Shown: in pieces, positions 2,614 through 28,200 of the stretch
How the letters are laid out: each line of letters begins with the position of its first letter
How positions within the stretch are numbered: position 1 is the first letter of the stretch
Source of the DNA: a virus
IMG/VR virus record: IMGVR_UViG_3300030012_002828
Span: 1 to 64,000 of that record
DNA length: 64,000 bases
Strand: one strand, 5' to 3'
The notes under the pieces: generated by a model
Told to the model about the DNA's origin: nothing
The model's input: only the letters and a program-made list of their open reading frames with translations
The model's database searches: none
Translations under genes and position numbers: made by a program

Positions 2614-3355
2614 AATGTGGGAAGATATAATTAAAAATCAAATTAGCATTGGAAGACAAAGTGTTAGAACAAGAAGAAGACCTTTACCTGAAAAATCTCC
2701 CCCTAAAGAATGTTGGCCTTTTTTTGAAAAACTAATTATAGATTTTGTCGAATTAAATAAAATCTATGACCCCGAAAGTACCTCGCTTATGCCTTCTACT
2801 TTAGAAAAGATTAGAGTTGAATTCCCTAATGAAGAATATTGGTGTGAATTTAAAGAAACTATGGAAGTATACATTGATGGTGACCTACCAAAAGGAAAAA
2901 ATGAAACTAATGCTACTTATATAACAATTTACGGGTATGTAAATGGTGGTAAAGAAAAGGTCATTTTAACTTTTCAATTTAGTTTAATTTTTGCTAATAG
3001 TCTTAGAAAAACTATTTGGACTATGAGTTGTAACTTTTTTTATCAGGCTGGTTTAATTCAAATTTATGATAAGGAAATAAATGCTTACGATTGGCAATAT
3101 AAAGAATTAGAGCGAATTGCAGGTATGTCAGGTATTAGATTTTTCTGTAAAGTATTTTACAGTTGGAAATCTGCTGTAACTGAATGGTTAAAAAGAATAG
3201 GAGTTGATAGTATAAAGTATTATGGTTGGCCTGAGTTTATAATAAATGATTGCGATAAACTTGTTGGGGATATTCAAAAATCTCAAATACAAACTGGAAG
3301 ACAGGAAATTAAAACTTCAAGGTTGCCCCTACCTGAAAAAACTAAAACAAACTGT
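82..3355 (+). repeat. Six copies of the PLPEK motif across two genes
   Basis: Protein-level repeat of 25-27 residues encoded at about 82-156, 781-858, 1405-1485, 2062-2139, 2633-2713 and 3278-3355; a seventh copy is at 7590-7670. Invariant or nearly invariant positions are a Gln, a Thr three to four residues later, Pro-Leu-Pro-Glu-Lys, and a final Cys. Just before most copies stands a short D-I-x-K segment (for example E-D-I-I-K, D-D-I-K-K, G-D-I-Q-K). DNA identity between copies is low, so selection has kept the peptide, not the DNA. Confidence 0.8.
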
Positions 3356-3928
3356 AAAGAAACCGTACTTCAAATATTTTACGAATTTGATAAAATGAAT
3401 CAATGGATTTATGGAAGAAATCATACAGAAATATCCGATTGGTTTAAATCAAGCGAATACTATAAATTAACAGAAAAAGAGTATTGTCATTTTTTAGAAA
3501 CTGTTAGAATTATATATCAGCGAGCAGGTTCTGGTTTCGACCACCAAAACGAATTATTACAATTAATTGGATATTTTTCAGTAGGTATTCCTTTTATTAT
3601 CGAATATACTATACTACAAACTTCGAGTATAATAAATGGTGTTCCTACACATTGGGTTCCTGATTTTCAAATAGTATTAAATTCTACAACAAGAGGTCTA
3701 CGACCTTTAGAAAAGTGGATAGAAAATGACGATATGGGAGAAATGATTATGTATATAAATGAAATGGATGAAGAAAGATGGGAAGAATTTAAAGGTGGAT
3801 TAAAATTAATGTACCAAGAACGAATAAATAAAATAAAATCATTATGTAATAATCCAGAAGTATATATGGAAATAGAACCCACTTCTACTTTTCCAGAAAA
3901 TTTAAATCCTCCAATTAAATTTAAATAG
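2615..3928 (+). CDS. Two-module PLPEK protein with N-terminal W tag
   Basis: This 437-residue protein follows the previous gene after one base. It begins M-W-E-D-I-I-K, a short form of the tag seen in many proteins here, running directly into a PLPEK motif (residues 7-33). A second motif starts near residue 222, again after a D-I-Q-K segment, so the protein is two units of about 210 residues. No enzyme signature was found. It continues the module series of the preceding gene, as if one longer array had been divided by a stop and restart. A virion role is inferred from the tag and the position. Confidence 0.8.
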   Translation: MWEDIIKNQISIGRQSVRTRRRPLPEKSPPKECWPFFEKLIIDFVELNKIYDPESTSLMPSTLEKIRVEFPNEEYWCEFKETMEVYIDGDLPKGKNETNATYITIYGYVNGGKEKVILTFQFSLIFANSLRKTIWTMSCNFFYQAGLIQIYDKEINAYDWQYKELERIAGMSGIRFFCKVFYSWKSAVTEWLKRIGVDSIKYYGWPEFIINDCDKLVGDIQKSQIQTGRQEIKTSRLPLPEKTKTNCKETVLQIFYEFDKMNQWIYGRNHTEISDWFKSSEYYKLTEKEYCHFLETVRIIYQRAGSGFDHQNELLQLIGYFSVGIPFIIEYTILQTSSIINGVPTHWVPDFQIVLNSTTRGLRPLEKWIENDDMGEMIMYINEMDEERWEEFKGGLKLMYQERINKIKSLCNNPEVYMEIEPTSTFPENLNPPIKFK

Positions 3929-3960
3929 TCTTTCTATTTTAATTTCTTTTAGGGAATCTT

Positions 3961-4683
3961 ATGTCTTGGGAATCTTTGATAAAAGCAAGAGGCAATTCAC
4001 CAAGAAAATTGGATTTTGTTGAAAGGTATGGACTTGATACTGAAAATTTTTATTCAATACATCAAGTTTTGGCTAATATGAAACAAAGAAAAGGCGGATT
4101 TATGGCAGGTCAATTTAATACTGTACAATTAAGAGGCGTATTAGATAAATTAGTTAGACAAGGGAGGGCTGAAGGTAGACCAATAACAATAAAAAGACCA
4201 ACATCAGGTAATGCAAAAAGACCTTCAATGGAATATAGACAAATTGTTAAAGAAATATCTAAATCTGATTGGAGGGCAACGGTAGATAATCTTGTTACTA
4301 AAGATACACCTTTTGAGATAATATATGATAATATTAGACAGTCTATGAAATTTGATTCACCAAGTAGAGGTGATGTTTTAAAATATTTAAATGAAAATTA
4401 TGACCGACATAAACTTTGGTCTAATTTATGGAGTGTAAGAAAAATACTAAAGGCAAAGGTAAAAGCAGTTAGAAATAAAAGATATTATGACTATGTAAAA
4501 TTTATTAAAAAAATTCTAAAAGATGAAGGTGGTGCCGCAGGTATGAAGAATTTTATAGATGCCGGTAACAAAATAGATGGCTTTGATGAAAAATATTTAA
4601 AATATGTTATAGGTGATGCAATAGACCATGATGATTGGTTATCTGAACATGAACATGGAGATTATTATTTAACGGAGGATTAA
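3961..4683 (+). CDS. MSW-tagged protein of unknown function
   Basis: This 240-residue protein starts M-S-W-E-S-L-I-K. The start follows a TTTTAGGGAATCTT leader. The body is rich in Lys and Arg and looks mostly helical; residues 40-90 and 100-200 could hold small winged-helix-like units, but no family is recognised. The C-terminus is acidic with several His and Asp residues. It lies between PLPEK genes and a run of tiny basic tagged genes. The 32 bases before it are T-rich and gene-free. Confidence 0.75.
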   Translation: MSWESLIKARGNSPRKLDFVERYGLDTENFYSIHQVLANMKQRKGGFMAGQFNTVQLRGVLDKLVRQGRAEGRPITIKRPTSGNAKRPSMEYRQIVKEISKSDWRATVDNLVTKDTPFEIIYDNIRQSMKFDSPSRGDVLKYLNENYDRHKLWSNLWSVRKILKAKVKAVRNKRYYDYVKFIKKILKDEGGAAGMKNFIDAGNKIDGFDEKYLKYVIGDAIDHDDWLSEHEHGDYYLTED

Positions 4684-4685
4684 TT

Positions 4686-5006
4686 ATGTCTTGGGAAGAT
4701 ATTTTAAAAAGAAAAAAGAGCAAAACAAAAAAGCGCAAGCCTAAGAAAAAAGAGGATATGAGAGTAGGTCGAGTTTATCCTTCTGATAGAGCAGGTAAAA
4801 AAATTATGATGCTAACGCATGAAGGTAAAAAAATTCATGCGGGTGCTAAAGGGTATGGTAATTACAAAGGTAAAGGAAAAAATAGAGGCGGAGGAACACA
4901 CACTAACAAAAAGCGTAGGGCTAATTTTAAAGCAAGGCATAATTGCGACCAATGTAAAGGTAGAATTACAACTCCTAAATGTTTAGCGTGTAAAAAATTG
5001 TGGTGA
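4686..5006 (+). CDS. MSW-tagged small basic protein with Cys pairs
   Basis: 106 residues with a strong GGAGG site before the ATG. After the tag M-S-W-E-D-I-L-K come a Lys/Arg run (residues 9-23), a Gly/Lys/Asn-rich middle, and a C-terminal zinc-knuckle-like arrangement of C-x2-C and C-x2-C near residues 90-102. Such composition suits nucleic acid binding. I infer a DNA-binding protein carried inside the capsid; no named family was recognised. Confidence 0.75.
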   Translation: MSWEDILKRKKSKTKKRKPKKKEDMRVGRVYPSDRAGKKIMMLTHEGKKIHAGAKGYGNYKGKGKNRGGGTHTNKKRRANFKARHNCDQCKGRITTPKCLACKKLW

Positions 5007-5011
5007 TTATT

Positions 5012-5167
5012 ATGTGGGAAGATATATTAAAAAAGAAAAAAGATGCTTGTTATCATAAAGTAAGAAGTCGTTATAAAAAGTGGCCTTCTGCTTATGCTTC
5101 AGGTGCATTAGTACAATGTAGAAAAAAGGGTGCTAAAAATTGGGGCAATTCTAAGAAGAAGAAGTGA
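5012..5167 (+). CDS. W-tagged 51-residue basic protein
   Basis: The ATG at 5012 follows GGTGATTATT, a good ribosome binding site for this genome, and the frame runs to TGA at 5165-5167. It starts M-W-E-D-I-L-K-K, then has a compact conserved-looking body with two Cys, many Lys/Arg and aromatic residues (segment W-P-S-A-Y-A-S-G-A-L near residue 24). From memory, very similar small bodies recur in marine virus contigs, but I cannot verify this here. Probably a virion-internal or DNA-binding peptide. Confidence 0.75.
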   Translation: MWEDILKKKKDACYHKVRSRYKKWPSAYASGALVQCRKKGAKNWGNSKKKK

Positions 5168-5171
5168 TATA

Positions 5172-6008
5172 ATGTGGCAACTTATTCTTAAGAAAGAATC
5201 TAAATGGGTTAATAATCTTTCTGAGAGTAAGCAAAAATTACTAAATACTAAACCTTCTTTTAATGTAAAATTTCCCGAACTTTCATTTCCCGATAATGAA
5301 AGTGAATTGTCTGAAGTTATGAATATAATGGAAAAATATGAAATGAGTAAAGATGTCGAAAAGGATTTAGACCAAAATAATAATAAAATGATGTTAGATA
5401 TTGTTGGAGAAAATGCAGTAGATTGGGCAGACTTCGTTAAAGATGTAGATATTTATACCATGCAATTAAAAATGAAATACAAAAGACCAAGACCCTATGA
5501 AGTTTCAGATAAAATTAAATCTATAACAGATACTGATGATACACCATCTTTTCCAAGCGGCCACGCTATTGAAGCATATGCTTTAGCAAAAGTCCTCGCA
5601 GAAGAACACCCTGAAAAGGAAGAAGAATTATTTAATATGGCTGAAGCAATTGCTTTATCGAGGGTATTAATGGGTAATCATTTTCCAAGTGATATAGAAG
5701 CAGGTGAAAAAATAGGATTATTAATTGCTGATGCTTATTTAGATACCGATGTTAAAAAATCATGGGAAGACCAATTATCTAAAGGTTGGGTTGATTGTTC
5801 TTCATGTGGTAAAGGGAAAAAGAGAAGACCTTGTGGTAGAAAGGATGCTTCTAAAGGGCAAAAAAGAAGATGCCGACCAACTTGTTCAGCCTGTAAAGAT
5901 TACAAAAGACGAGCAGGTAAAAGAGGAAAGAAAAAGAAAAGAAGAAAAGGCACTTTTAGTTTAGAAGATAAATATGGACTTCACGGTTGGTTCAAAAGGA
6001 GGGGTTGA
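5172..6008 (+). CDS. W-tagged PAP2-type phosphatase with basic Cys-rich tail
   Basis: Start chosen at the ATG at 5172, which gives the tag M-W-Q-L-I-L-K-K; an upstream GTG in frame lies inside the previous gene. Of 278 residues, the middle carries the three PAP2 acid phosphatase motifs: K-x6-R-P (K100 to P108), P-S-G-H (128-131) and S-R-x5-H-x3-D (S163 to D174). Family members remove phosphate from lipids or small molecules. There are no clear membrane segments, so it resembles soluble class A or vanadium-haloperoxidase-like members. A second tag-like peptide (S-W-E-D-Q-L-S-K, 197-204) precedes a Lys/Arg-rich tail with about eight Cys. The fusion suggests an enzyme carried in the virion. Substrate unknown. 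Confidence 0.85.
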   Translation: MWQLILKKESKWVNNLSESKQKLLNTKPSFNVKFPELSFPDNESELSEVMNIMEKYEMSKDVEKDLDQNNNKMMLDIVGENAVDWADFVKDVDIYTMQLKMKYKRPRPYEVSDKIKSITDTDDTPSFPSGHAIEAYALAKVLAEEHPEKEEELFNMAEAIALSRVLMGNHFPSDIEAGEKIGLLIADAYLDTDVKKSWEDQLSKGWVDCSSCGKGKKRRPCGRKDASKGQKRRCRPTCSACKDYKRRAGKRGKKKKRRKGTFSLEDKYGLHGWFKRRG

Positions 6009-6465
6009 TATACCAATAAGAAAGGTGAAAGGCGGCTATAAATGGGGTAAGCGTGGTAAAGTCTATAAAAATCGTAAAGATGCTGAACGGCAAGCGGCTG
6101 CTGCATATGCTTCAGGATATAAAAAATCTGAAGATGTTATTACATGGAAAGATATTCTTAAAGCAAAAAGAATCCCAAGAAAGAAAGGGCAACCTGCTAA
6201 TTCTAAAAAACATTCAGATTTATACACAGATGAAAATCCAAAAGGAACAATACATGGTTTAGGATTTAAAACTGTAAAAGATGCAAAACGCTCAGTAGCA
6301 AAAATAAAAAGAAGTAGTAGAACCCATGCACATAAAACTCAAGCGGCTATCGCTATGGAACAAAGAGCAAGAGAAATGGGTAAAAAAACTGCGGCAGGTA
6401 TTTATAGGACTTTCATTAACGCACAAAAGAGAAAGACTAAAGCAAAAAGGAAGCGTAAAAAATGA
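5974..6465 (+). CDS. Basic two-domain protein with internal W tag
   Basis: 163 residues if begun at the ATG at 5974, which overlaps the end of the phosphatase gene by 35 bases in the +1 frame and has no clear binding site. An AGGAGGGG run at 5997-6004 lies inside the overlap. Residues 20-50 are Lys/Arg/Ala-rich; an internal tag T-W-K-D-I-L-K (58-63) follows, then a second basic domain ending in a Lys/Arg tail. The internal tag makes it look like two tagged genes fused. It may be entered by a frameshift from the upstream gene rather than by its own start. Likely DNA-binding and virion-associated by inference. Confidence 0.65.
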   Translation: MDFTVGSKGGVDIPIRKVKGGYKWGKRGKVYKNRKDAERQAAAAYASGYKKSEDVITWKDILKAKRIPRKKGQPANSKKHSDLYTDENPKGTIHGLGFKTVKDAKRSVAKIKRSSRTHAHKTQAAIAMEQRAREMGKKTAAGIYRTFINAQKRKTKAKRKRKK

Positions 6466-6587
6466 AAGAATTTACTTATTGTGGTCGCTGTTATGAAACT
6501 GACGATGTTTATCCTTTTGGGTTTTGTAGAAAATGTTGGATTAAACATGGCAAACCTAAAGCGATGAATGGTGATATAGTTGCCTAA
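6462..6587 (+). CDS. 41-residue zinc-knuckle protein
   Basis: The ATG overlaps the stop of the previous gene (ATGA). The short protein has two C-x2-C pairs (C7, C10 and C22, C25) spaced as in a treble-clef or zinc-ribbon fold, with aromatic residues between them. Too short for a firm family call. It sits in a chain of translationally coupled tiny genes. Confidence 0.6.
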   Translation: MKEFTYCGRCYETDDVYPFGFCRKCWIKHGKPKAMNGDIVA

Positions 6588-6690
6588 TAAAAATAAAGTT
6601 AGAAAGCCAATAAAAAGAAAAAAGGGAGAACCAAGTCAAAAATCTGAAAAGAAAAGACCCAATAAACCAAACTACCCAAGAAAGAGATGA
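6580..6690 (+). CDS. 36-residue Lys/Arg/Pro-rich peptide (TTG start)
   Basis: A TTG at 6580 follows GGTGATATAG, which matches binding sites elsewhere in the window, and overlaps the end of the previous gene. The product is about half Lys, Arg and Pro, with no hydrophobic core. It resembles a disordered DNA-condensing tail. The coding assignment rests on the binding site, the overlap and the basic composition it shares with its neighbours. Confidence 0.45.
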   Translation: MPNKNKVRKPIKRKKGEPSQKSEKKRPNKPNYPRKR

Positions 6691-6694
6691 TATT

Positions 6695-7579
6695 ATGCCA
6701 AAATTTTCACCTCGAAGAAATGAATTATTTCAAGTGTCAAGGTATGAATTACCAGATGGTTTAAAAAAACATATTGCTGTTGGTGTACAAAAAATAAAAA
6801 GCGATAGAGATACAAGTTATCCTAATAGTAATTGGGGTTCTGATGAACTAATGGTTATAGAAGGAAATAATCCAATGATACAACAGGGAGGCGGAGATTA
6901 TAGTATAACTTATATTTCTTTTTTTAAACTAAGAAAAGGAGGCGGAGTTTCAATTCCAGTATTAGATAAATTAAGTGTAGATAGAAGATTAACACAAGAT
7001 GCAAAAGGTCTGCTTAAATTTTTTGGATTAACTGATAGGTGGGCATTACCACCAGAAGATGATGAATCTAAATTAGCAGCAGGGCATTTTAGAGTTAATT
7101 TAGAAAGAAATGAAGTAATGGTACAATATGTTACAACATACAATTCATCGTTTATTGTTTTATATATAGGTTTTGAAAGTCCTTTAAAAATTTACGAAGG
7201 GTATAATATGTATAGTGACTTAACGGTTCGTGAATATATTGGTTTAAGATTGCTTTACAAGTCTTTTAAGAATCGCAGAAGAGAATGGAAATTATCAGAT
7301 GCTTGGCGACATTTTTTTAATGAATGGTCAAAAAGCGAAGTTACTGTTAAATTATTAGAAGGGAAGGGTTATTTACGATTTAAAAAAGAAGGTTTTCCAA
7401 GCATTACATCTAAAGGAAAAGCACATTTAGAAAATTTAATAGATAATGTAAATTTTGTTTCATTACAATTTAATGGCCGTGTTTCAGATATATTAAAAAT
7501 GGATTTAAATATAAATTGGAATGCTGAATTAGATAGTAAATTAATGGATGTATTGGAGGAATATTATGGATTGGACTGA
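6695..7579 (+). CDS. Protein of unknown function, possible winged helix at C-terminus
   Basis: 294 residues, not recognised, and without a W tag. The N-terminal 150 residues look beta-rich with Gly-Gly turns. Residues 200-265 have a helix-turn-helix-like layout with a wing (K-G-Y-L-R-F...), suggesting a winged-helix fold. The stop overlaps the next gene by 14 bases, so the two are probably translated together. Confidence 0.7.
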   Translation: MPKFSPRRNELFQVSRYELPDGLKKHIAVGVQKIKSDRDTSYPNSNWGSDELMVIEGNNPMIQQGGGDYSITYISFFKLRKGGGVSIPVLDKLSVDRRLTQDAKGLLKFFGLTDRWALPPEDDESKLAAGHFRVNLERNEVMVQYVTTYNSSFIVLYIGFESPLKIYEGYNMYSDLTVREYIGLRLLYKSFKNRRREWKLSDAWRHFFNEWSKSEVTVKLLEGKGYLRFKKEGFPSITSKGKAHLENLIDNVNFVSLQFNGRVSDILKMDLNINWNAELDSKLMDVLEEYYGLD

Positions 7580-8342
7580 GAAATTACAAAAGAATCAAAT
7601 ACAAATTGGTCGTCAAAATGTAAAAACATCAAGATTACCATTACCTGAAAAAACACCTAAAAAAGATTGTAATGAAGAATTACTAAATATACATAAAAAA
7701 ATATCTGCTAAAATGAAAACATATGTACCTAAAATATTTGATGTATTTAACAATGCCCTTCTCCCCTCTTTAAAACATCAAGACGGTTCTATTGACAAAT
7801 TAAGACCTATTGTTTTATCCGACTCATTTCTTAAAAATAATTATTTAAAATATGAAGGTTCGGGGTATGAATACGGTGTTAAAGTAATATTAACACCAGA
7901 TAATCATATGAATAAACTTTCTGAACATTTAGGTCTTACTATGTATTGTCAGTTTATACCTTTTGAAGATGAAGAAATTGCTTGTAAAGTATTAGATTGG
8001 ATTAAAAATACAAAAGATGGCGTTATAGATTCAGATATATGGTTTGGAGATAATAGAAAATATCACGGTGCAATGGATTTGGATTATGAAAGAAGTGGAA
8101 TTGCAGATATACTTATTGGTATTGGCCCAAGAAGTAACGATGGTAGCGGTGCTTTTATTGTCTATCTAAGATTTAATGAATATGTTAATTTAGCATTTAG
8201 ACAGGTATATACTTTACTTTTAGGGGTTAAGGATGACCCCAAAAAAATTGCTGAAGATTGGTTAAATGATTTTCTTAGTGCTGTTAGTGATGCAGATATA
8301 AGGGCTATGGCAGAAGAATTAATAAATATAATTAGACAGTAA
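7566..8342 (+). CDS. Single-module PLPEK protein with W tag
   Basis: The ATG at 7566 is preceded by GGAGGAATATT; an upstream in-frame start is less likely. The 258-residue protein opens M-D-W-T-E-K-L-Q followed at once by a PLPEK motif (residues 9-35, ending at C35). The rest, about 220 residues, is the size of one unit in the polyprotein-like gene at the left edge. It therefore defines what a single free-standing unit looks like. Function unknown. Confidence 0.8.
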   Translation: MDWTEKLQKNQIQIGRQNVKTSRLPLPEKTPKKDCNEELLNIHKKISAKMKTYVPKIFDVFNNALLPSLKHQDGSIDKLRPIVLSDSFLKNNYLKYEGSGYEYGVKVILTPDNHMNKLSEHLGLTMYCQFIPFEDEEIACKVLDWIKNTKDGVIDSDIWFGDNRKYHGAMDLDYERSGIADILIGIGPRSNDGSGAFIVYLRFNEYVNLAFRQVYTLLLGVKDDPKKIAEDWLNDFLSAVSDADIRAMAEELINIIRQ

Positions 8343-8386
8343 TTATTATAAAGAAGTTTAAGTTTTTAATTAATTAGGGGAAAACT

Positions 8387-8494
8387 ATGACAAGGTGCAA
8401 TTTTCTTGATTCTTGGTTTGATTCTAAATCTAAAGAATTAGATAAAAGAGAATCTAAAACTAAAAAATGTTTTGTTACAGGTAAAAAAAGGTGA
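8387..8494 (+). CDS. 35-residue basic peptide
   Basis: The ATG at 8387 follows TTAGGGGAAAACT, and the frame runs to TGA at 8492-8494. It has two Cys, a short aromatic stretch (F-L-D-S-W-F) and many Lys. The 44 bases upstream hold TTATTATAAAG and a TTAATTAATTA stretch, which could be a weak promoter. The coding call is tentative. Confidence 0.45.
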   Translation: MTRCNFLDSWFDSKSKELDKRESKTKKCFVTGKKR

Positions 8495-8498
8495 TTAA

Positions 8499-8969
8499 AT
8501 GGTAAGGATGCCAAACTTCAAACCTGATAGAGAATTAGAAACAGAAGAATTTATTTATTCTGAACATGATATGGAAGATGTATTAGAAGGTTCAGCAGGA
8601 GATTGCTGTGAATTGGCAAAAGATTCTTGGATTAAGTCAGTAGAAGACCAAATACCAAGTATAAATAATCTTAATAGAGAATATGTTGCTTATACATTAG
8701 ACCCTTCTAATTTAGATTGTAGAAATTTTTTAGATTTACTTAAAAAATTAAATCAAATGAGACCGGGAAGTTTTGCTACGGCTTCGGTAAATAAAATTAT
8801 AGGTAGATATTTTAGAATAGACCAAATGAAAACATCGTTATTAAGTAGTGTAGCAACAATAGCCAAAAAAGCAGGTGCAGAAGCGTTAAAAACTTGGATG
8901 TATTGTGCAAGTAAAAAGAATGAAATGTCTACTAATTGGCAAGATACTCTAAGGAGAGATTTTAGATGA
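8499..8969 (+). CDS. Small protein with a C-terminal W-tag-like peptide
   Basis: 156 residues, starting after GGTGATTAA. The body has several Cys (C-C near residue 33) and is mainly helical; no family recognised. It ends with T-N-W-Q-D-T-L-R-R, which resembles the W-x-x-I-L-K tag but at the C-terminus. The stop overlaps the ATG of the next gene (ATGA). Confidence 0.7.
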   Translation: MVRMPNFKPDRELETEEFIYSEHDMEDVLEGSAGDCCELAKDSWIKSVEDQIPSINNLNREYVAYTLDPSNLDCRNFLDLLKKLNQMRPGSFATASVNKIIGRYFRIDQMKTSLLSSVATIAKKAGAEALKTWMYCASKKNEMSTNWQDTLRRDFR

Positions 8970-9121
8970 AATGGGAAGAATATTTAAAAAGTATAACTAA
9001 TAAGGAAATAACAGACTGGGAAGATGCTATTAAAGCATTTACTAAAAAAGGAAAAGAATTAGGTATGCCTTTGAATATTATAGATACTTTAACAAAAGCA
9101 TTAAAGAGGGAAGAAAAATGA
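8966..9121 (+). CDS. 51-residue protein with two W tags
   Basis: Begins M-K-W-E-E-Y-L-K after an AAGGAG site and contains a second copy (D-W-E-D-A-I-K-A) from residue 17. The rest is a Lys-rich helix. It overlaps both neighbours through ATGA junctions. The protein is little more than two tag helices joined, which may make it a linker or a minimal cargo adaptor. Inference only. Confidence 0.65.
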   Translation: MKWEEYLKSITNKEITDWEDAIKAFTKKGKELGMPLNIIDTLTKALKREEK

Positions 9122-9387
9122 GTTGGAAAGATATACTAAAAGGTGAAGACCGCTTCGGAATACTTAAACCGAAAGGTTTCAAAAACAAGGTAAAAACAGA
9201 AGCAAAGCGAATAGTAAGAGAAAGGCATGGATTGAAATTTGATGATTTTTTAAATGCTGAACAGAAGCGTGAAGCGGCATATTTAGCAGAATTGATGTTT
9301 AGAGGAATGTCACCCGAAGAGGCTAAATTACAATCTTATAACCCGCCTCAAATGGATGATGATGATTTACCAGTAGAAGGATTTTGA
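9118..9387 (+). CDS. MSW-tagged 89-residue protein
   Basis: Starts M-S-W-K-D-I-L-K-G-E-D. A Lys/Arg-rich stretch (residues 18-40) is followed by a helical part and an acidic end with four Asp in a row. No family recognised. Translation is coupled to the previous gene by an ATGA overlap. Confidence 0.75.
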   Translation: MSWKDILKGEDRFGILKPKGFKNKVKTEAKRIVRERHGLKFDDFLNAEQKREAAYLAELMFRGMSPEEAKLQSYNPPQMDDDDLPVEGF

Positions 9388-9406
9388 TATTTAAAAGGTG
9401 AATAAT

Positions 9407-10726
9407 ATGTCATGGAAAGATATTCTAAAAGATGACGATGAGGATGAATACGGTAAGCGTTTTATGAAACCCGATGGTGAAGAATTCGTACAGGGATATG
9501 GTTTTATTGAAGAACCATACGGAGAAGATAGACAACCTATTACAAGAGATGAAAAAGGAAAACCATTAGAAGGCGAAGAAAGAGATAAAAGAATGGAAGA
9601 ATTTAGACAAGATAGGAAAAACCCTAAAATTTCAGAATTAGTCAATTGGTTTAAAATTAGTCTTGAAGCAACAATGGAAGATATGTTAAGTAGTATTGGG
9701 GCTGAATATACAGAAATGGATGGTAGAGGTGGAGGCTTCGCTAACATAAGAAGAAAACCAACAAAGGTAAAAACAAAAATTAGAGAATTAGGTGTAGAAA
9801 TAACTCAAGATATTATTGATAGTGTAATTGAAGGTTTTATGGATGCTATCACAAAAGACCCTAAGTTTAACGATGAAGAAACAAATCTTCTTAGAATTAC
9901 TCTTTCATCCGGTTACCAAAGGGTTTATGATTCAGGTTTAAAAATATCTGAAGAATTAATGACTGGTATTTTTGATTCAGTATATAATAATATAAGGGCA
10001 ACTAATGAAGCAGATGTTCCTGAAAAAGAATATGACAAAGAAAAACTTGACCCATTAGGAGATGTACCTAAAGAATTTACAGAAGATATGTGGGCGGCCA
10101 CATCAAATAGAATAATAAGAGATATAGAATCAATATTAAGTAATATTGATGATTATCTAACAGATGTTATTTCACAAGATAAAGCATCATTAGAATTATT
10201 TGATTTAGATTCAGATGGCACACCCGATGTTACTGCAACAGAAATTAAAAATTCTATTAAAACTAAATTACAACAATTAACTTCTTCACCTCAAATGACA
10301 AATTTAATTAAAGAATTTACAGGTGCTGTTTCTTTTGCTTTTGCTTTTAGATACCCACAAATGCAACAAAGAATGGAAATGAACCCTGATATTGCAGACC
10401 AAACAACATATGAAGAATTAGGCCAAGACCCTAATTTTGAAACAGAAATGGCTAATAGACCCGAAATACAATCAGGAGAAATGACAGATGAAGAAAGACA
10501 AAAATTTGAAGACAAGTATAAATCTAACGATACTTATACAGGAGAACTCAACTGGCAATCTATATTATCTAAAGGGCATGGTGTAGCACTAACTTCTCAA
10601 GCAGGTTTTAGTCCAGCAATACATAATTTAGCATTTGGAAATAAACCATGTTGTGATGAATGCGCTGAAGTAAAACCACCTTGTAGTAGATGTAAAGATA
10701 AAACAACTCCTTGTGGTTGTGATTAA
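9407..10726 (+). CDS. MSW-tagged protein with a second tag and Cys-rich tail
   Basis: The ATG at 9407 lies 4 bases after AGGTGAATA; an upstream GTG belongs to the binding site. The 439-residue protein starts M-S-W-K-D-I-L-K-D-D-D. The body is acidic and helical. An EF-hand-like stretch (D-L-D-S-D-G, about residue 267) could bind calcium. A second tag-like peptide (L-N-W-Q-S-I-L-S-K, W383) comes before a tail with eight Cys in the last 25 residues, probably a metal-binding knot. Not recognised as a known family. Confidence 0.75.
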   Translation: MSWKDILKDDDEDEYGKRFMKPDGEEFVQGYGFIEEPYGEDRQPITRDEKGKPLEGEERDKRMEEFRQDRKNPKISELVNWFKISLEATMEDMLSSIGAEYTEMDGRGGGFANIRRKPTKVKTKIRELGVEITQDIIDSVIEGFMDAITKDPKFNDEETNLLRITLSSGYQRVYDSGLKISEELMTGIFDSVYNNIRATNEADVPEKEYDKEKLDPLGDVPKEFTEDMWAATSNRIIRDIESILSNIDDYLTDVISQDKASLELFDLDSDGTPDVTATEIKNSIKTKLQQLTSSPQMTNLIKEFTGAVSFAFAFRYPQMQQRMEMNPDIADQTTYEELGQDPNFETEMANRPEIQSGEMTDEERQKFEDKYKSNDTYTGELNWQSILSKGHGVALTSQAGFSPAIHNLAFGNKPCCDECAEVKPPCSRCKDKTTPCGCD

Positions 10727-10727
10727 A

Positions 10728-12032
10728 ATGAGTAAGTTTGAAGGCACAGATTTTGATAATGTAGACCAATATTTTGATATTGGTGCAATTAAAGGAGATT
10801 ATGATGCTTGGAAAACAAAATGGAATAAAGGTTCTGAGTGGGGAATTGTAGGGGGTAAAGATGGTAATAAACCTAAAACTGTTTTAGAAACAGTATTAAA
10901 TCATGGTGACCCTACCTTTGCCCGTGACCAAGCAAGAAGTATTGAAGGTTTAGGTGCTTTATTAGAAGCATTAACAGAAATACTTGATGGCGATACAATT
11001 GAAACAGAACATAAACTACAATTACAAGAAGCAATAGATGGTATGGAAGAAACTTTAACAAGAGATAAAGGTAAATGGAATCCAAGAAATATACCTTTTA
11101 ATACTGTTGTAGAATTTAACGAAACTGATGACCCTAAAGCACCTGATATAGTAAGAGATACAGTTTATGGGCATTACAGAACAAAAGCATATAATGATTA
11201 TGTAGAATGGGCTAATGAAAATAAACCCAATAAAAATTTAAAGGTTGCTAAACACGAAGATGAATGGACTAATAAATCACAAGGTAAAGCAAGACCTCCA
11301 CTTTGGCAAGCAATTACAGGCGTGGGAGAAACTAATGAAGGAAAAGGCGGTATTTTATTTATTGCAAAAAAAGCATTAAAAGGTGTAGATAAAATTAAAA
11401 TGGGTGATGGTAATAGAATTGCTATCTTTAATAATTCAAAAGGGCCAATTCAATTAGCGCAAATAAAAAGTGTTCAAGAAAAAGTTATAGAAGTTTTACA
11501 AAATCCTAATATTTATCCCGCAGGGAAATCAAGAGCACCTATGAAAGATAGATTAAATGCTGCTTTTACTAATGAAAGTTATGCTATAAGAAATGAAGAA
11601 GAAGCCCGATTACTTAATTTTGCTAAAGGGTATGATAGGGTTGAAGGTGTTGAAAAATTAAAAACTGTTAAACTAAGATTTCCAAAAAATAATCTTGCTC
11701 TAAATAAAACCATTGTACAGGTTCTAAAAGTTTTAGGACAAGAAATGAAAAATTATCAAACTCCAAAGGCTAAAGATGGAACAGCAAAACCCGGATTAGT
11801 TTTGAAAGAAAAAAGAGAAAATAAATTTAAAGGAGAAATTACAATGAGTTGGAAAAATGTATTAAAACAAAAAAAATTAAGCCCTAAGCAAAAGAAAATT
11901 GCTGAAGCGGCTGAACCTAAACATAAAATTACAGGTGCAGATTTTAAAGCATTAGCCGAAGAAGATAAAAAAACTGTTACTCGAAAAGATAATAGAAAAA
12001 AAGGAAGAGGCGCATTTACAGATAGGGATTGA
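10728..12032 (+). CDS. Unknown protein whose C-terminus is a tagged module
   Basis: 434 residues from the ATG at 10728, one base after the previous stop. The first 370 residues are charged and match no family I know. Near residue 373 the frame contains M-S-W-K-N-V-L-K preceded at the DNA level by AAAGGAGAAATTACA, a full ribosome binding site. The C-terminal 62 residues can thus be made both as part of this protein and alone (next entry). Confidence 0.75.
   Translation: MSKFEGTDFDNVDQYFDIGAIKGDYDAWKTKWNKGSEWGIVGGKDGNKPKTVLETVLNHGDPTFARDQARSIEGLGALLEALTEILDGDTIETEHKLQLQEAIDGMEETLTRDKGKWNPRNIPFNTVVEFNETDDPKAPDIVRDTVYGHYRTKAYNDYVEWANENKPNKNLKVAKHEDEWTNKSQGKARPPLWQAITGVGETNEGKGGILFIAKKALKGVDKIKMGDGNRIAIFNNSKGPIQLAQIKSVQEKVIEVLQNPNIYPAGKSRAPMKDRLNAAFTNESYAIRNEEEARLLNFAKGYDRVEGVEKLKTVKLRFPKNNLALNKTIVQVLKVLGQEMKNYQTPKAKDGTAKPGLVLKEKRENKFKGEITMSWKNVLKQKKLSPKQKKIAEAAEPKHKITGADFKALAEEDKKTVTRKDNRKKGRGAFTDRD
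11844..12032 (+). CDS. Nested MSW-tagged 62-residue basic protein
   Basis: In-frame internal start. The DNA around the ATG (AGGAGAAATTACAATG then MSWKN codons) closely matches the start of the separate gene at 13048 (AGGAATTACAATG then the same codons). The product has the tag, a basic stretch L-S-P-K-Q-K-K-I-A, a segment I-T-G-A-D-F and a Lys/Arg end. Separate translation is inferred from the binding site. Confidence 0.5.
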   Translation: MSWKNVLKQKKLSPKQKKIAEAAEPKHKITGADFKALAEEDKKTVTRKDNRKKGRGAFTDRD

Positions 12033-12037
12033 TTTAA

Positions 12038-12700
12038 ATGACAAGGAAAGTAAGAAAGTCTTGTAAATTATGCCAACACGAAGACCGTGATGGTTTAGAA
12101 GAAGACATACTTGCTGGAAATATTACTTGTGATGAATTAGATAAGCAGAATAATTGGTGGGCAGGAACTTCTAAAAAACATATGCAAAATCATTTAGGGG
12201 ATTATCACGATAATTCTAACCCTTCTTGTCCTGTATGTACATATCCTAATAGAGCCGAAATAGAAATAGCAATTAGTGAAGGTACGATGAAAGTTTCTGA
12301 TGCGGCAGAAATAATATCTTGTTCAGAAGCACAAATACAATTACATATGAAAAAACATTTAAAGCCTATTGTACAACAACATGGTGCTTTAGAAGTTGCA
12401 AGAATGGATTTAAATGAAATAGATATGTTATCAGGTAATGTAACTGTACTACAAAATAAAGTAAATGAATTATTAGAAAATACTGAATTAGGTACAAAAC
12501 AAATAGATTCATTAACTAAATTAGCAAAAGAAATTAGAGAATCTCTTAAGTATATGTTAGAATTTAAAGGACAATTAGTTCATAAAAGAGAAGAAACTGT
12601 TGTTGTTCAACAAGTAGAAATTATCCAAAAAGTTCTTATAGAAAAATATCCTGAAGTATGGACTGAGATAAGAGATAGTGTAGCGGAGAGATTATCATGA
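12038..12700 (+). CDS. Putative terminase small subunit with two zinc-finger-like repeats
   Basis: 220 residues. Two similar N-terminal units each have C-x2-C followed by a helix-turn-helix-like stretch and H-x3-H (about residues 9-56 and 64-107). Such units would suit recognition of viral DNA ends. The C-terminal half is a long helical, probably coiled-coil region, as in terminase small subunits, which form rings. It is untagged and is the best small-terminase candidate in the window, although the large subunit is 8 kb downstream. An alternative is a DNA-binding regulator. Confidence 0.5.
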   Translation: MTRKVRKSCKLCQHEDRDGLEEDILAGNITCDELDKQNNWWAGTSKKHMQNHLGDYHDNSNPSCPVCTYPNRAEIEIAISEGTMKVSDAAEIISCSEAQIQLHMKKHLKPIVQQHGALEVARMDLNEIDMLSGNVTVLQNKVNELLENTELGTKQIDSLTKLAKEIRESLKYMLEFKGQLVHKREETVVVQQVEIIQKVLIEKYPEVWTEIRDSVAERLS

Positions 12701-13035
12701 GTTGGAAAAATATATTAAAGGCTCGAGGAAGTAATGTAAATAGATGGGGCGGAAGAGATTGGGATTACCCTATTTGGGTTAATAAAGAAGGAGAAATATA
12801 TGAATTATATAGCGCATACTATAACGATGCTGGAGATTATGCAGAAAATTATGCTGAATATAAAAGTATAGGTGCAGACAGAAGAGTTTTACAATTAACT
12901 AAAGATGAAGCATTAGAATTAGAAGCAGACTTAAAAGATGTTCCTGAAGAATCAAAAGATTCGTGGGATAAAGCACCGTTGGGTCATGTTTTGGTAGATG
13001 ACCTCATGCAATATGGTGATATTGAAGATGATTAG
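12697..13035 (+). CDS. MSW-tagged acidic protein
   Basis: 112 residues starting M-S-W-K-N-I-L-K-A-R-G, coupled to the previous gene by an ATGA overlap. The body is rich in Trp, Tyr, Asp and Glu and probably folds as a small alpha/beta domain. No family recognised. Confidence 0.75.
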   Translation: MSWKNILKARGSNVNRWGGRDWDYPIWVNKEGEIYELYSAYYNDAGDYAENYAEYKSIGADRRVLQLTKDEALELEADLKDVPEESKDSWDKAPLGHVLVDDLMQYGDIEDD

Positions 13036-13047
13036 GTAGGAATTACA

Positions 13048-13569
13048 ATGAGTTGGAAAAATATATTGAAGGCTGACGAATCTTGGAGAAAGAATTTAAA
13101 GCGTGGCGGAAAAGCCAAGCCTAAACAAACAGATACTATTATGGAATTTATTAAAATGAATCCTAAAAGAACGATAGCAGATATTCAAAGACATTTACAA
13201 TATTTATACCCCGCACAAATGACAACTAAAAGACTTAGAAAATTTTTAGAAGAAAATACTAATATTGTAGTTTCTGGTAGATACCCTACAACATATAGTT
13301 ATAGAGAACCGTTATCTAAAGCAAAGAAAAAAATACCAAGAAAAGCAATTAGAGATGAAATTGACAAATATGTAAATTCTCAAGATGGTAAAGTTACAGT
13401 TAGAGAAGTTCAACAAGCCCTTATTAGAAAATTAGGAGTAATGGGTTTAACTGAAAAACCAGCATCTGTAAAAAATTATTTGTTTGGATGGCATACAGAA
13501 AAGGCTGAAGCCTTTGACCCAAATATTCATAGAAAAGATGATTTTTATTACGAGTTGGAGGATGAATAA
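13048..13569 (+). CDS. MSW-tagged protein with two winged-helix-like domains
   Basis: 173 residues. The tag M-S-W-K-N-I-L-K is followed at once by a second, shorter one (S-W-R-K-N-L-K-R). Residues 30-80 (beginning T-I-M-E-F-I-K-M-N) and 95-150 look like two winged-helix or helix-turn-helix units, so DNA binding is likely. The end is acidic. The start follows TAGGAATTACA, shared with the nested start at 11844. Confidence 0.75.
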   Translation: MSWKNILKADESWRKNLKRGGKAKPKQTDTIMEFIKMNPKRTIADIQRHLQYLYPAQMTTKRLRKFLEENTNIVVSGRYPTTYSYREPLSKAKKKIPRKAIRDEIDKYVNSQDGKVTVREVQQALIRKLGVMGLTEKPASVKNYLFGWHTEKAEAFDPNIHRKDDFYYELEDE

Positions 13570-13570
13570 T

Positions 13571-13810
13571 TTGACAACAGCACAAGAAGTTAGAATGGAT
13601 AATATGGAAGATAAAATTATTAGACATGAAATGCTTTTAGAAAAATTAACTGATAATCAGTTAGAGTTAAGTACCAGACTAACCGAGTTAGCCACATCAA
13701 TAGATGCTCAAAATCATCTAATAGGTGAAGGTTTTGATTTAATGAAAAAGGTGATACTCGGTTTATTAAGTTCTTTATCAGCGATATTAATTGGTACACA
13801 GGTGATGTAA
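13571..13810 (+). CDS. Holin-associated type small membrane protein (TTG start)
   Basis: The TTG at 13571 is preceded by GGAGGATGAATAAT. The 79-residue product has a coiled-coil N-terminal half and one hydrophobic helix at the C-terminus (V-I-L-G-L-L-S-S-L-S-A-I-L), the plan of XhlA-like lysis helpers. Two more small membrane proteins follow nearby, supporting a lysis or membrane role. A start at the ATG at 13604 is possible. Confidence 0.55.
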   Translation: MTTAQEVRMDNMEDKIIRHEMLLEKLTDNQLELSTRLTELATSIDAQNHLIGEGFDLMKKVILGLLSSLSAILIGTQVM

Positions 13811-13811
13811 A

Positions 13812-14174
13812 ATGAGTAAAAAAGAAAAATCATTTAATGATAAATTAGTAAATAAAACAGTATTACCCGCTATTTATCTTTGGTTATTGGCTTCAGGTGC
13901 TGTTGTTTATACAGGTATTGTAAAGCCCGATGTAGTACTAACTAATTTAGATGGCTTTATTGCTTTGATAGCAATTATTGGGGGAATAGCCGCACCCGCA
14001 TTTAATACTCTACTTAGAACATGGGAGGCAGAACAAGCAAATGAAATTGTAGAAGTTCCTGCTGAATATGAACATAGAAGAGGTTTAGAAGAAGCACAGC
14101 ATAAACATCAAATGTCTATGGAAGCAGAAAACAATACTCATAGCAACACTATGGAAACAATACAAGGTGAATAA
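13812..14174 (+). CDS. Putative holin, two membrane segments, His-rich tail
   Basis: 120 residues after GGTGATGTAAA. Two hydrophobic segments (about residues 18-38 and 48-67) are separated by a short loop, then a charged tail with seven His. The layout fits a class II holin, the pore that starts lysis. This rests on topology and on the neighbouring gene at 13571 only. Confidence 0.5.
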   Translation: MSKKEKSFNDKLVNKTVLPAIYLWLLASGAVVYTGIVKPDVVLTNLDGFIALIAIIGGIAAPAFNTLLRTWEAEQANEIVEVPAEYEHRRGLEEAQHKHQMSMEAENNTHSNTMETIQGE

Positions 14175-14175
14175 A

Positions 14176-14841
14176 ATGAAAAAATGGAAAAATCAATTAA
14201 AGAAAGCCCCTTTGGATTTTAGGGATATGGAATTTGTTACTCCCAGAAATCCAGTTAGAGATAATGATATGTACTTAGACCGATTGCGTGGCGTTAAACC
14301 TCTTGAAAATAGAAGTACTCAAGGCCCTATTCAAGGAAAGAGTCCAACTCCAAAAGAAGGATTTAGTGAATTATCCGAAGAACAACAAATGGTAGGATTA
14401 AATATAGCAAGAAGATGGGCACAACAAACAATGCAAGCGTTAGTTGATTATGAAAATGAAGTGGGTCAAAGAGGCGTTAAATATCAGGGTGAAGATGATA
14501 CGGGTATGATAAAAGCATATAACAATTTAATGGGAATAGCAAGGTCAATAGAAGAAAATTATAAACGAAAACCTTGGTACTTGAAAATATTTGGTAGAGG
14601 TAGAAGGTATAGAAAAATAGTAAAACAAATAAATGATTTAGGTGAAAAAATGAATCAGGCATTTAGAAATTACAAACTTAATTTGAACATGGCACAAACT
14701 GATGCTGAAAGACAACTTAGGTACAATAAAGTAAATCAATCTTTGAAAGCATCATTACAAACACTTCAGCAAGTTAAAAACGAATTAAACAATTTTGCAC
14801 AAGAACCTATTGAAAAAGAAGATAGAAATTGGGATTATTGA
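14176..14841 (+). CDS. W-tagged helical protein
   Basis: 221 residues starting M-K-K-W-K-N-Q-L-K-K, a divergent tag. A Pro-rich stretch (residues 40-65) leads into a long helical region rich in Gln and Arg. The ATG at 14176 is placed after AGGTGAATAAA. Not recognised. Confidence 0.7.
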   Translation: MKKWKNQLKKAPLDFRDMEFVTPRNPVRDNDMYLDRLRGVKPLENRSTQGPIQGKSPTPKEGFSELSEEQQMVGLNIARRWAQQTMQALVDYENEVGQRGVKYQGEDDTGMIKAYNNLMGIARSIEENYKRKPWYLKIFGRGRRYRKIVKQINDLGEKMNQAFRNYKLNLNMAQTDAERQLRYNKVNQSLKASLQTLQQVKNELNNFAQEPIEKEDRNWDY

Positions 14842-14850
14842 GGTGGTATA

Positions 14851-15060
14851 ATGACGAAAACAGAAAAGGAAATAACAGAAACAGTAGAAGATGTAGAAGA
14901 TTTAGTAGAAGATGCCCTTGATATTGCAGAAGATTTAGGACTTATTAGTGAGAAAAAGGTTGATAAGATTCTTGCTAAACTTAAACAATATAAAAAGCAA
15001 ATTCTTATTGCAGTTCCTTCTATTTTGGTAGTAGTAGGTTTGGTACAATCTCAATTGTGA
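14851..15060 (+). CDS. Small acidic protein with C-terminal membrane helix
   Basis: 69 residues after a GAGGTGG site. The first 35 residues are highly acidic with a regular Glu/Asp-Val spacing; residues 50-66 form one hydrophobic helix. It could be a third component of the lysis set or a membrane anchor. Confidence 0.6.
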   Translation: MTKTEKEITETVEDVEDLVEDALDIAEDLGLISEKKVDKILAKLKQYKKQILIAVPSILVVVGLVQSQL

Positions 15061-15069
15061 GGTTGTACT

Positions 15070-17403
15070 ATGAATTGGAAACTAATTCTAAAAGAAGATA
15101 GTACACCTAATATAATTAGCGCAGGTGCTATCAAAACAAAATTTAGTAAAGGTAACTTACCTTCTAAAAAAGAAATAGATGAGATAGTAGAGGTACATGG
15201 ACAAGTCCAAATAAAAAATATTGATACAGCCCTTACACAATTAAAATCTGCATACAATAAAATTGCTCAAGGTGAAGATGCACCTAATAGTATTATTAAT
15301 AGAATGATAGAAGGTAGATTTAGTAAAGTAGGTAAAGATAGAGAAGATAGTCTTAGAATTGTAGGAGAAAGATTAAAAGAATTGCAGGCTCTTAAAGGAA
15401 CAGATGAAAACCCCCTAATAAATAAAACAATAGGAGGAATAACATTTGGGGAGTTAGTTTCACCCGATGATAAAACAAATCAAGAGTGGACTATTGAAAC
15501 TCTTAATGCTTTATATCAAAAAATGATAACAGAACCATCCGTTGAATTGTTGTACGCATTACATTATTTTATTAATACTTCAACCGATGGTAATTGGTCA
15601 AGAGCAGGAGGTTGGGTTAATAGAATGGGCAAAGATTCAATAGAAAATCCTGACACACAATTTTTAAAGAATGTTTTTGATTTAAGAGGTAAGCGTGATG
15701 TTAAAGGTAATATTGATAAAAAGGTTTTTGAGTTCTTTAATAAAGGTAATAAATTTAAATACACGACAGAAGGTATGAGAAATATTACTGTTAAAAGAGG
15801 TAAGGGTAAGTTTGTAACAAGAGAAGGTAAAGAGATTTCTCCAAGTAGAAAATACGAACAAGAAGGTGGCTTTAGAGAAGTAACAAGAGAAGTAGGAGAT
15901 TCACGAAATATTGTAATGGGTGAAAGAAAGTCTATGCAATATTTGATTACTGATGATTTAGTAAATAAAATCAAATCATTAACAGAACAACAATTTATAG
16001 AATTGGTTAATAATTTAAATAAAACAAATTCTTCAATAGATTTTATATCTTCATTAAAAGGTACTACTACTGAAATAGTCTATATGTTATTAAGTAGAGA
16101 TATGGGTATAAATGCTTTAGTTAGAAATATAGATGTTGCGAGAAAGGGTATGAGTCCTTCTTCACGAAGAAAGGATTATCTACATGATTGGGCTGTTAAG
16201 GAAGTTAATAAAAGAATGAAAAATGCAAATGATTCAGATGGAGAAGACTTTGAATTATTTAATATAGTATTACCTTCGCAAACTAAAGCAGAAGAAATTA
16301 TAGAAAATAAAGGGGATAGTTACGACGAATTTAGAAGAAATAAATCTAAGATGATAGATAATTTAAAAGGTAAAGTTAGAGGTGGGGATGAAACTTGGAA
16401 CAAATCTTTTGAAACATGGCTTAAATCAAGAAGAAGATTAGAAGATTCTTATCAAGGGGGCGATTCTAAAACTTTAGACCCATCGCAGAACCCTGTTAAT
16501 GTTGAAGGTGCTATGAATATAAATTATTCTTTTAAGACTTCAAACCAAATAAATGATTTTATAGAAAATTTAGGTGGCGATACTGTTTTCCGTTCACATA
16601 TACTTTCAAGAAATTTATTAGCATTATTTTTTGATTATTATATTGATTTTGGCCCAGAAGAAGGTAGAGATAAAGGTGAAAGACTTAGAACATTGGGCGA
16701 CTTTAAAGGCTATTTGCCTTCAGGTAGAATTTTTGCTGATTCAACGGAAACTACATTTTTTGACTCTATGAGAGCATTACTTACAGTAATAAAGAAAGTT
16801 TTAACAAATTCTGCATTAAGAAACTATAATCAAAATATTAACATGTCATTAGAAAAATTCTTTGAAGGTATAGATGAATTATTTAAAAAAGAGGGTGGAG
16901 AAATAGATTTACAGCCCGATGACGATGAAAATAGAAAGGAAATATTTAGCGATATAGATGCTATGGATTCTATTGATGATAATTTAAAATCATCATGGTT
17001 TGGTACAAAGGCATATATGTTAAATATAGAAGATGAATTATCCTTTGCTATGATGGATTTAAAAGAAGCAGTTGCAGAAAAAATTGCGGAAAATATTATT
17101 TTGATTGCTGAAGATACTACCGATAAATACAGACCTTCAGGAATAAAAATAGGTGGTAGGTCAAAAGGTATAAGAGATTACCTTGCGTTAAAGAAATTTA
17201 TAATACCACCTAAACCACCTAAACAAATCAAAGTTAATAAAACAACATACAAGTTAGACGAATCTATGTTTGATGAAACAGATTTAGATGCACAACTAAA
17301 ATATTATGCCTTTGAGAAAGAATATGACTTTTCTGAAGAACCATCTTTAAATATGGATAAGGTCAAGACACTAACACTAAGAGAGGCTATTGAGGGGTTT
17401 TAA
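15070..17403 (+). CDS. Large W-tagged protein of unknown function
   Basis: 777 residues beginning M-N-W-K-L-I-L-K-E-D. The sequence is charged and mostly helical with no recognised catalytic motif. Its size and tag make it the largest single-chain cargo candidate. It is one of four very large unknown proteins interspersed with the head genes (also 17407, 25208, 34509). Confidence 0.75.
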   Translation: MNWKLILKEDSTPNIISAGAIKTKFSKGNLPSKKEIDEIVEVHGQVQIKNIDTALTQLKSAYNKIAQGEDAPNSIINRMIEGRFSKVGKDREDSLRIVGERLKELQALKGTDENPLINKTIGGITFGELVSPDDKTNQEWTIETLNALYQKMITEPSVELLYALHYFINTSTDGNWSRAGGWVNRMGKDSIENPDTQFLKNVFDLRGKRDVKGNIDKKVFEFFNKGNKFKYTTEGMRNITVKRGKGKFVTREGKEISPSRKYEQEGGFREVTREVGDSRNIVMGERKSMQYLITDDLVNKIKSLTEQQFIELVNNLNKTNSSIDFISSLKGTTTEIVYMLLSRDMGINALVRNIDVARKGMSPSSRRKDYLHDWAVKEVNKRMKNANDSDGEDFELFNIVLPSQTKAEEIIENKGDSYDEFRRNKSKMIDNLKGKVRGGDETWNKSFETWLKSRRRLEDSYQGGDSKTLDPSQNPVNVEGAMNINYSFKTSNQINDFIENLGGDTVFRSHILSRNLLALFFDYYIDFGPEEGRDKGERLRTLGDFKGYLPSGRIFADSTETTFFDSMRALLTVIKKVLTNSALRNYNQNINMSLEKFFEGIDELFKKEGGEIDLQPDDDENRKEIFSDIDAMDSIDDNLKSSWFGTKAYMLNIEDELSFAMMDLKEAVAEKIAENIILIAEDTTDKYRPSGIKIGGRSKGIRDYLALKKFIIPPKPPKQIKVNKTTYKLDESMFDETDLDAQLKYYAFEKEYDFSEEPSLNMDKVKTLTLREAIEGF

Positions 17404-27439: not shown

Positions 27440-27666
27440 GCGAAGAATTAACACTATTATTAAAAGAATTAGTAGAAAGAATAAAGACTTTAGAAACAAC
27501 CGTATACAATGCAGATAATGTATTGCTTAAATCCGGTCTTGTTAAAGTAGACGGAATAAAACCATCAATACAAAGTGCAAGTAGAGTACCAAGTGCTGAT
27601 ACAATAGCAAAAATGGATTGGTCGGAAATAGATGAATTAGTAGTAAGAATGGCAGGTGAACAATAA
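27436..27666 (+). CDS. Small head-operon protein ending in a W-E-I-x-x-L-V peptide
   Basis: 76 residues after GGTGATAAAAA. The N-terminus is a short leucine-rich coiled coil. The last 18 residues (27613-27663) begin M-D-W-S-E-I-D-E-L-V, nearly matching the C-terminal peptide of the scaffold at 31986. The shared tail suggests both bind the same partner, perhaps the inner face of the capsid protein. Confidence 0.65.
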   Translation: MSEELTLLLKELVERIKTLETTVYNADNVLLKSGLVKVDGIKPSIQSASRVPSADTIAKMDWSEIDELVVRMAGEQ

Positions 27667-28190: not shown

Positions 28191-28200
28191 GTGATTGATA

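Follow-up and report, generated by a model that had tools for sequence, protein, structure and literature searches.

Encapsulins load unrelated cargo by way of a short peptide that docks it to an HK97-fold shell, and in phage HK97 itself gp4 cuts gp5 after K103; the prohead protease of phage T4 acts at sites of the Glu type. The internal proteins of T4 are diverse, with only their capsid-targeting sequence (CTS) conserved (PMC3012670), and the prohead protease cuts this sequence off (PMC7411985). An N-terminal signal likewise sends DarB of phage P1 into the capsid, the Dar cargo being anti-restriction (PMC9024508), and in giant phages of the SPN3US type several head-protein propeptides are removed by the prohead protease, the propeptide of the protease having been proposed as core-targeting (PMC7411985). 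Here we describe a short, mostly N-terminal tag, M(x)W-x-x-[ILV]-[ILV]-K, borne by otherwise unrelated proteins in the IMG/VR virus record IMGVR_UViG_3300030012_002828 and its relatives. The window, by which we mean the whole stretch of DNA analysed, is the first 64 kb (64,000 nucleotides) of this 93,843-bp record. In our view the tag is quite likely to be a capsid-loading signal that would combine a copy of the scaffold's docking tail with a site for the maturation protease.

The virus is a magrovirus, a halovirus-like tailed virus of marine archaea, as follows from its capsid protein of the SU10_MCP family (PF17236), its genome of ~90 kb and its archaeal-type replication block; tblastn links the capsid protein to haloviruses HVTV-1 and HCTV-1. 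The + strand of the window encodes terminase, portal, tail genes, the capsid protein and an S78 prohead protease fused to the scaffold, and the - strand PolB, a clamp loader, ERCC4 nuclease, RNR and IMPDH. Magroviruses are described in PMC10160649, which reports them as possibly among the most abundant viruses of the surface ocean. In all, 80 relatives were collected via the capsid gene, and seven more long genomes were read besides the window record (eight in all). All tests on the tag count related sequences too, which makes the p-values optimistic; the effect size is what matters.

A clean tag was defined as W..[ILVMF][ILVMF]K a few residues from an ATG. In the eight long genomes, among called genes that do not overlap, 116 of 525 on the late strand are tagged as against 0 of 484 on the early strand (Fisher p 1.6e-36), at roughly 9 to 21 tags per genome, clustered in the same kind of block. 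The initial annotation had named tags mainly on replication proteins of relatives as one of two findings that would refute its proposal, and the early-strand genes, which are those of replication, carry none. PolB, ERCC4, the clamp-loader AAA protein, RNR, IMPDH, terminase, portal and tail tube are all untagged. Across the relatives, the rest of the tag follows in 154 of 321 cases where the Trp stands at residues 2-5, and in 37 of 4,889 where it lies beyond residue 20. When the W of the pattern is swapped for F, Y or L, 4, 3 and 0 of 3,548 proteins match, compared with 128 that match with W. The tag is thus confirmed as more than chance. Synonymous codon variation at its I, L and K is roughly that of the protein bodies, and selection therefore acts on the peptide, not on the DNA. 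As the initial annotation had claimed, the bodies are unrelated: 218 distinct tagged proteins fall into 128 body clusters, 98 of them singletons. A search of IMG/VR with the DNA pattern for M[NS]W[KE][DN]ILK alone returned contigs of which 36 of the 50 tested hold the capsid gene of this virus; the remaining 14 could be fragments, belong to other viruses or match by chance. No N-terminal tags were found in the late half of HVTV-1, and the tag is therefore not general to haloviruses.

The Trp part of the tag recurs at the ends of two scaffold-like head proteins. The protease-scaffold protein (30750-32033) ends in M/L-[SDET]-W-x-[DEQ]-[IVLA]-[HN]-x-[LM]-[VA] in every relative, with few exceptions; in the window this C-terminal motif reads MSWEEINDLVNEVQG (31986..32030, + strand, as for all window spans written with two dots below), and W415 is invariant (58/58). 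The same ending is found in a conserved coiled-coil protein of the head region, 76 residues long (27436-27666), where it reads MDWSEIDELVV (27613..27645). Of the 4,389 distinct contexts of a Trp lying past residue 17, 70 match the core [ML][STDNE]W.[DEN][IVL]; in 62 of them the match is to the C-terminal tail of either the protease-scaffold or the small coiled-coil protein, and the majority of the remaining 8 have the look of tags that follow an upstream start. Apart from the tags and the two scaffold-like tails, the core is close to absent from these viruses.

The Lys end of the tag recurs as well. The protease is encoded in the head gene cluster ahead of the capsid gene and is recognized by PF04586 (E 1.7e-10), PF14550 (E 2.5e-7) and the PHROG for head maturation protease (E 7.7e-17). 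Directly before its S78 domain lies a VLK-G site (30816..30827), which is [IV][LI]K25 in 58 of 58 sequences; in HVTV-1, read by eye, FKS stands at the matching place. Between the scaffold coiled coil and the Trp tail, just before the latter, lies an IAK-Q site (31911..31922), I-x-K390-[AQS] in 58/58 (one with Leu at 388). The major capsid protein has an LIK-A site (32138..32149) that closes a conserved N-peptide of 25 residues and is followed by variable sequence; this site is [LI][LIM]K29 in all 67 sequences, K29 being invariant and one sequence having Val at 27. An LLK-S site (27523..27534) is present in the small coiled-coil protein, the family pattern being [LI][LM]K-[AS]. The [IL]-[LI]-K end of the tag matches the invariant hydrophobic-x-K sites of capsid protein, protease and scaffold, a pattern suggestive of processing by the S78 protease after Lys. 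After the tag Lys, Ala is found 28 times against 10.8 expected (2.6-fold), Asn and Ser are raised, and Pro is absent against 8.1 expected, which fits cleavage and would fit a helix equally well.

A family of head-region proteins, represented in the window by 25208-27439, suggests how the two parts relate. Its C-terminal 90 residues are conserved in ~60 loci, between the portal and the coiled-coil gene. At the N-terminus, some members begin with MSWQEVLK or MTWEYILK and others with MTWDYYGEGEEFILK or MNWDWYEDIIK: 16 members have a Trp-to-ILK spacing of 3 and another 16 a spacing of 10, and 3 to 7 residues have been gained or lost between Trp and ILK with W and K kept. The window copy has a different N-peptide of 27 residues, without Trp, behind which the IIK-A site is retained (25289..25300). 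Large tagged proteins of L007, L010, L014, L015 and L115 were considered as relatives of the 15070 protein described below and rejected, since they belong to this family. In the tag, a Trp anchor and an ILK site seem to be separable elements; the initial annotation had spoken of an amphipathic peptide, a label that proved too vague for an anchor and a site parted by insertions and deletions.

In the window, the block from the left end to the terminase holds ~22 genes, of which 11 have clean tagged starts and 3 weaker ones; the initial annotation had listed all 14 as tagged or as close variants. The clean tags begin a protein of 437 amino acids (aa) with two domains, each behind an I-x-K..QI...PLPEK linker (2615..3928, MWEDIIK); a 240-aa protein in which two cargo domains are fused (3961..4683, MSWESLIK); a basic Cys protein of 106 aa and net charge +28 (4686..5006, MSWEDILK); a basic protein of 51 aa (5012..5167, MWEDILK); a PAP2-family phosphatase with a Cys/Lys-rich tail (5172..6008, MWQLILK; PF01569, E 5e-15); proteins of 89 aa (9118..9387, MSWKDILK), 112 aa (12697..13035, MSWKNILK) and 173 aa (13048..13569, MSWKNILK); an acidic protein of 439 aa (9407..10726, MSWKDILK); a 62-aa protein with a nested start, preceded by the strong Shine-Dalgarno sequence AAAGGAG (11844..12032, MSWKNVLK); and a large helical protein of 777 aa (15070..17403, MNWKLILK), whose homologues L100:12421 and L086:12111 are tagged too. 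Only weak variants begin the proteins of 258 aa (7566..8342, MDWTEKLQK, with a QI..Q...PLPEK linker), 51 aa (8966..9121, MKWEEYLK) and 221 aa (14176..14841, MKKWKNQLK). Beyond the earlier list, an internal tag, WKDILK within ITWKDILKAK, lies at 6145..6162 in an open reading frame (ORF) at 5974-6465, and tag-like stretches stand towards the C-termini of the protein at 8508-8969 (tail NWQDTLRRDFR, 8934..8966) and of the acidic protein (LNWQSILSK, ~10547-10573).

Comparison with relatives suggests that the tag follows function, not descent, as fused or split cargo domains each keep or regain it. A relative encodes the two parts of the 3961 protein as individually tagged proteins, L100:319 (MWATILK) and L100:1860 (MWKNILK), and the halves of the 13048 protein are separate in relatives as L087:3101 (weak, MSWEDTLK) and L100:10912. 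The orthologue L100:4475 begins with the tag that is internal at 6145, and the nested 11844 ORF stands alone in G002 (L100:9499). Further copies of the motif end block proteins of relatives, for example ..ISWEGILRNES (L086), ..KSWQEVIRA (L095) and ..PEWKKILRGD (L096). The product of 12038, a Cys-containing, DNA-binding-like protein that we would guess to be the small terminase, is conserved in the genomes compared and untagged; the tag is therefore not a property of the whole block. As a separate observation, the ORF 10713-12032 of the window reads through into the nested tagged ORF, the two being separate in G002, which could reflect recent loss of a stop codon or overlapping genes.

Ahead of these genes, ORF 13..2613 resembles a polyprotein, with four domains parted by I-x-K-[SNK]..Q...PLPEK linkers (~67-159, 760-874, 1399-1489 and 2056-2146). 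The linker is repeated in this ORF and its neighbours as I-x-K-[SNK]..Q-x-[IV]-[RK]-T...PLPEK. Judged by shared stretches, the relative L242:4012, which starts MWEDVLKNQI, arranges these domains as 2-3-1-4. The start of the linker, I-x-K-[SN], matches the scaffold site, and the polyprotein-like ORFs may therefore be cargo strings that are cut apart in the head. The linker also belongs to a reused module of ~30 residues, I-x-K-[SNK]Q[IL]....Q-x-[IV]-[RK]-T-x-x-x-PLPEK....C, which stands ahead of unrelated domains at 13-3928 and 7566-8342 of the window and at L242:4012-7874 and L242:11751-13367.

We propose that the Trp part of the tag, hydrophobic-[S/T/D/N]-W-x-[D/E/N]-[I/L/V], is probably a copy of the C-terminal tail of the scaffold and would bind at the site of that tail, the likeliest place being, within the procapsid, the inward-facing side of the capsid protein. 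All late proteins with the Trp part would then travel into the head as it grows. For the [IL]-[LI]-K part we propose a site of the S78 prohead protease, and a cut after the Lys at maturation, which we consider just as probable, would free the cargo inside the shell; the same Lys cut would be made in the capsid protein, before the protease's own domain and in the scaffold, and multi-domain cargo would be cut at its I-x-K linkers. It is very likely that the tagged proteins are packaged in the head. The cargo set turns over fast (128 unrelated bodies) and would presumably be delivered with the DNA, injection being somewhat likelier than the alternative outcomes on the analogy of T4 and P1 and in view of the absence of an obvious structural role. 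We would give about even chances to a broader proposal, namely a general-purpose cargo port in which a copy of the scaffold tail plus a protease site, placed at either end of a protein or at polyprotein joints, would suffice for a protein to be loaded, cut free and injected, with dozens of fast-changing effectors per lineage in one virion. The initial annotation had proposed capsid targeting by a T4-like logic, followed by packing and injection; the scaffold Trp core, the shared hydrophobic-x-K sites and the late-only tagging all favour targeting, and the proposal as a whole is partly supported.

Several points weigh against this proposal. The virus is uncultured, and packaging is a prediction from sequence. 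The residue after the tag Lys is more varied than at the capsid and protease sites, and hydrophobic-hydrophobic-Lys triplets are common by chance in single proteins, so that it is invariance that counts. The model of the capsid protein is too poor to delineate a docking surface (predicted local distance difference test, pLDDT, 42). In addition, the scaffold tail has no Lys, and the fourth residue after Trp is His or Asn in that tail as opposed to Leu or Ile in the tag; under a weight matrix that includes the fourth position, the scaffold tails rank only near the 7th percentile among Trp contexts. The difference at the fourth residue speaks for a rival reading, in which the tag would load its cargo by binding the scaffold core, the coiled coil, in the manner of T4, where the CTS brings proteins into the scaffolding core (PMC3012670, PMC7411985), instead of mimicking the scaffold tail on the capsid protein. 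We nevertheless regard this as unlikely, since the Trp core common to scaffold tails and tags suggests a single docking site.

Loading into the head, by way of the scaffold-tail site, would itself be mistaken if the tag docked to some other late structure, such as the portal or neck, a complex of tail chaperones, a membrane site or a site of assembly. The few tagged genes within the tail module of G004 (2003, 2616, 6219), which count against head loading, would suit such a destination, as would the position of the tagged 25208 family next to the portal. However, two scaffold-like head proteins have the Trp core, the capsid protein and the prohead protease have the Lys site, and ten to twenty proteins of many sizes suit a container better than a neck, so that a destination outside the head interior seems less likely still than binding to the scaffold core. 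The rapid turnover of bodies behind a constant start might also hint at a feature of nucleic acid or translation, for example a recombination target or a start-region enhancer easing the entry of new genes. This is highly improbable: the synonymous variation mentioned above is that of the bodies, and the motif also stands internally, at C-termini and in scaffold tails.

Among the described systems, the T4 CTS, carried by IPI-III and Alt, is alike in being a short N-terminal peptide on unrelated late proteins with a prohead protease site at its end, which in magroviruses would be the Lys site. It differs in that its site is of the Glu type and not Lys, in that the Trp core also occurs at the C-terminus of the magrovirus scaffold itself, and in numbers and placement, with 9-21 tagged proteins per magrovirus genome against four, tags also at C-termini and in fusions, and archaeal viruses as carriers. 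By analogy, the magrovirus tag would work like the T4 CTS; we claim no membership of the T4 system, eight-residue motifs being too short for a homology test. DarB of P1 shares an N-terminal signal directing a protein to the capsid, although the signal described is that of DarB and not a short tag recurring across many proteins. The ejection proteins of SPN3US-type phages have long propeptides (e.g. 111-130 residues) with a T4-like motif, in contrast with the magrovirus tag of 8 residues and its Lys. HK97-type maturation offers the Peptidase_S78 domain and a likely parallel in cleavage behind the Lys that closes the capsid N-peptide, whereas magroviruses have a capsid protein of the SU10_MCP family, a scaffold fused to the protease and the same site on many cargo proteins. 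The encapsulin comparison made in the initial annotation added nothing beyond its general logic: the shell gene is that of a viral SU10_MCP capsid protein beside terminase, portal and protease, no similarity to an encapsulin shell or cargo peptide was found, and no encapsulin shell gene lies next to cargo in the window. We found no published description of the tag on searching the main magrovirus paper for capsid and scaffold terms, which falls short of a full literature check.

Pfam, PHROGs and PADLOC left 124 tagged proteins mostly dark, the clearest domains being PAP2, zinc ribbons, a MarR-like winged helix, SUKH and cytidyltransferase. The PADLOC matches among these proteins were weak and scattered and were not read as defence genes. 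Deposited phages gave no match for the cargo protein 13048 nor for 12038, and a sequence search of PDB with the capsid protein and the protease gave none either. In the AlphaFold model of L039:5281, from a small tagged family (pLDDT 82), the helical body is well modelled and the tag is a low-confidence appendage (residues 3-13, pLDDT below 50); a fold search with this model returned nothing at E below 1 in PDB or among viral models.

If the tag is indeed a loading signal, a simple motif would pick out virion cargo among the many dark genes of magroviruses, in what would be the first such addressing system that we could find for viruses of archaea. It would also offer a place to look for proteins that overcome the defences of archaeal hosts and provide an eight-residue handle with which foreign proteins might be loaded into an archaeal virus shell. 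Copying of a scaffold docking tail would then be a general mechanism to seek in other tailed viruses.

Archaea are thought to be the hosts of magroviruses, which are marine and uncultured. A host search in GTDB genomes, with Poseidoniales as the candidate host, yielded two matches only, both in metagenome-assembled genomes, of Altibacter and Maricaulis; these magrovirus contigs (L121, L122) are probably mis-binned. An IMG/VR contig of 184,733 bp (L148, G035) has two magrovirus capsid genes and is likely to be two genomes end to end. Within the head cluster of the window, between the coiled-coil and protease genes, lies a gene for an ATP-dependent DNA ligase (28195-30708), with 66 homologues in the loci of relatives; a second ligase-domain match was seen among the other genes scanned. 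Finally, between terminase and portal, 21885-23342 encodes a protein of 485 aa that contains a LAGLIDADG-like stretch, YVAGFIDSDGFI, which makes it a candidate homing endonuclease or a domesticated one; G004 has a counterpart of similar size and place (23296-24852).

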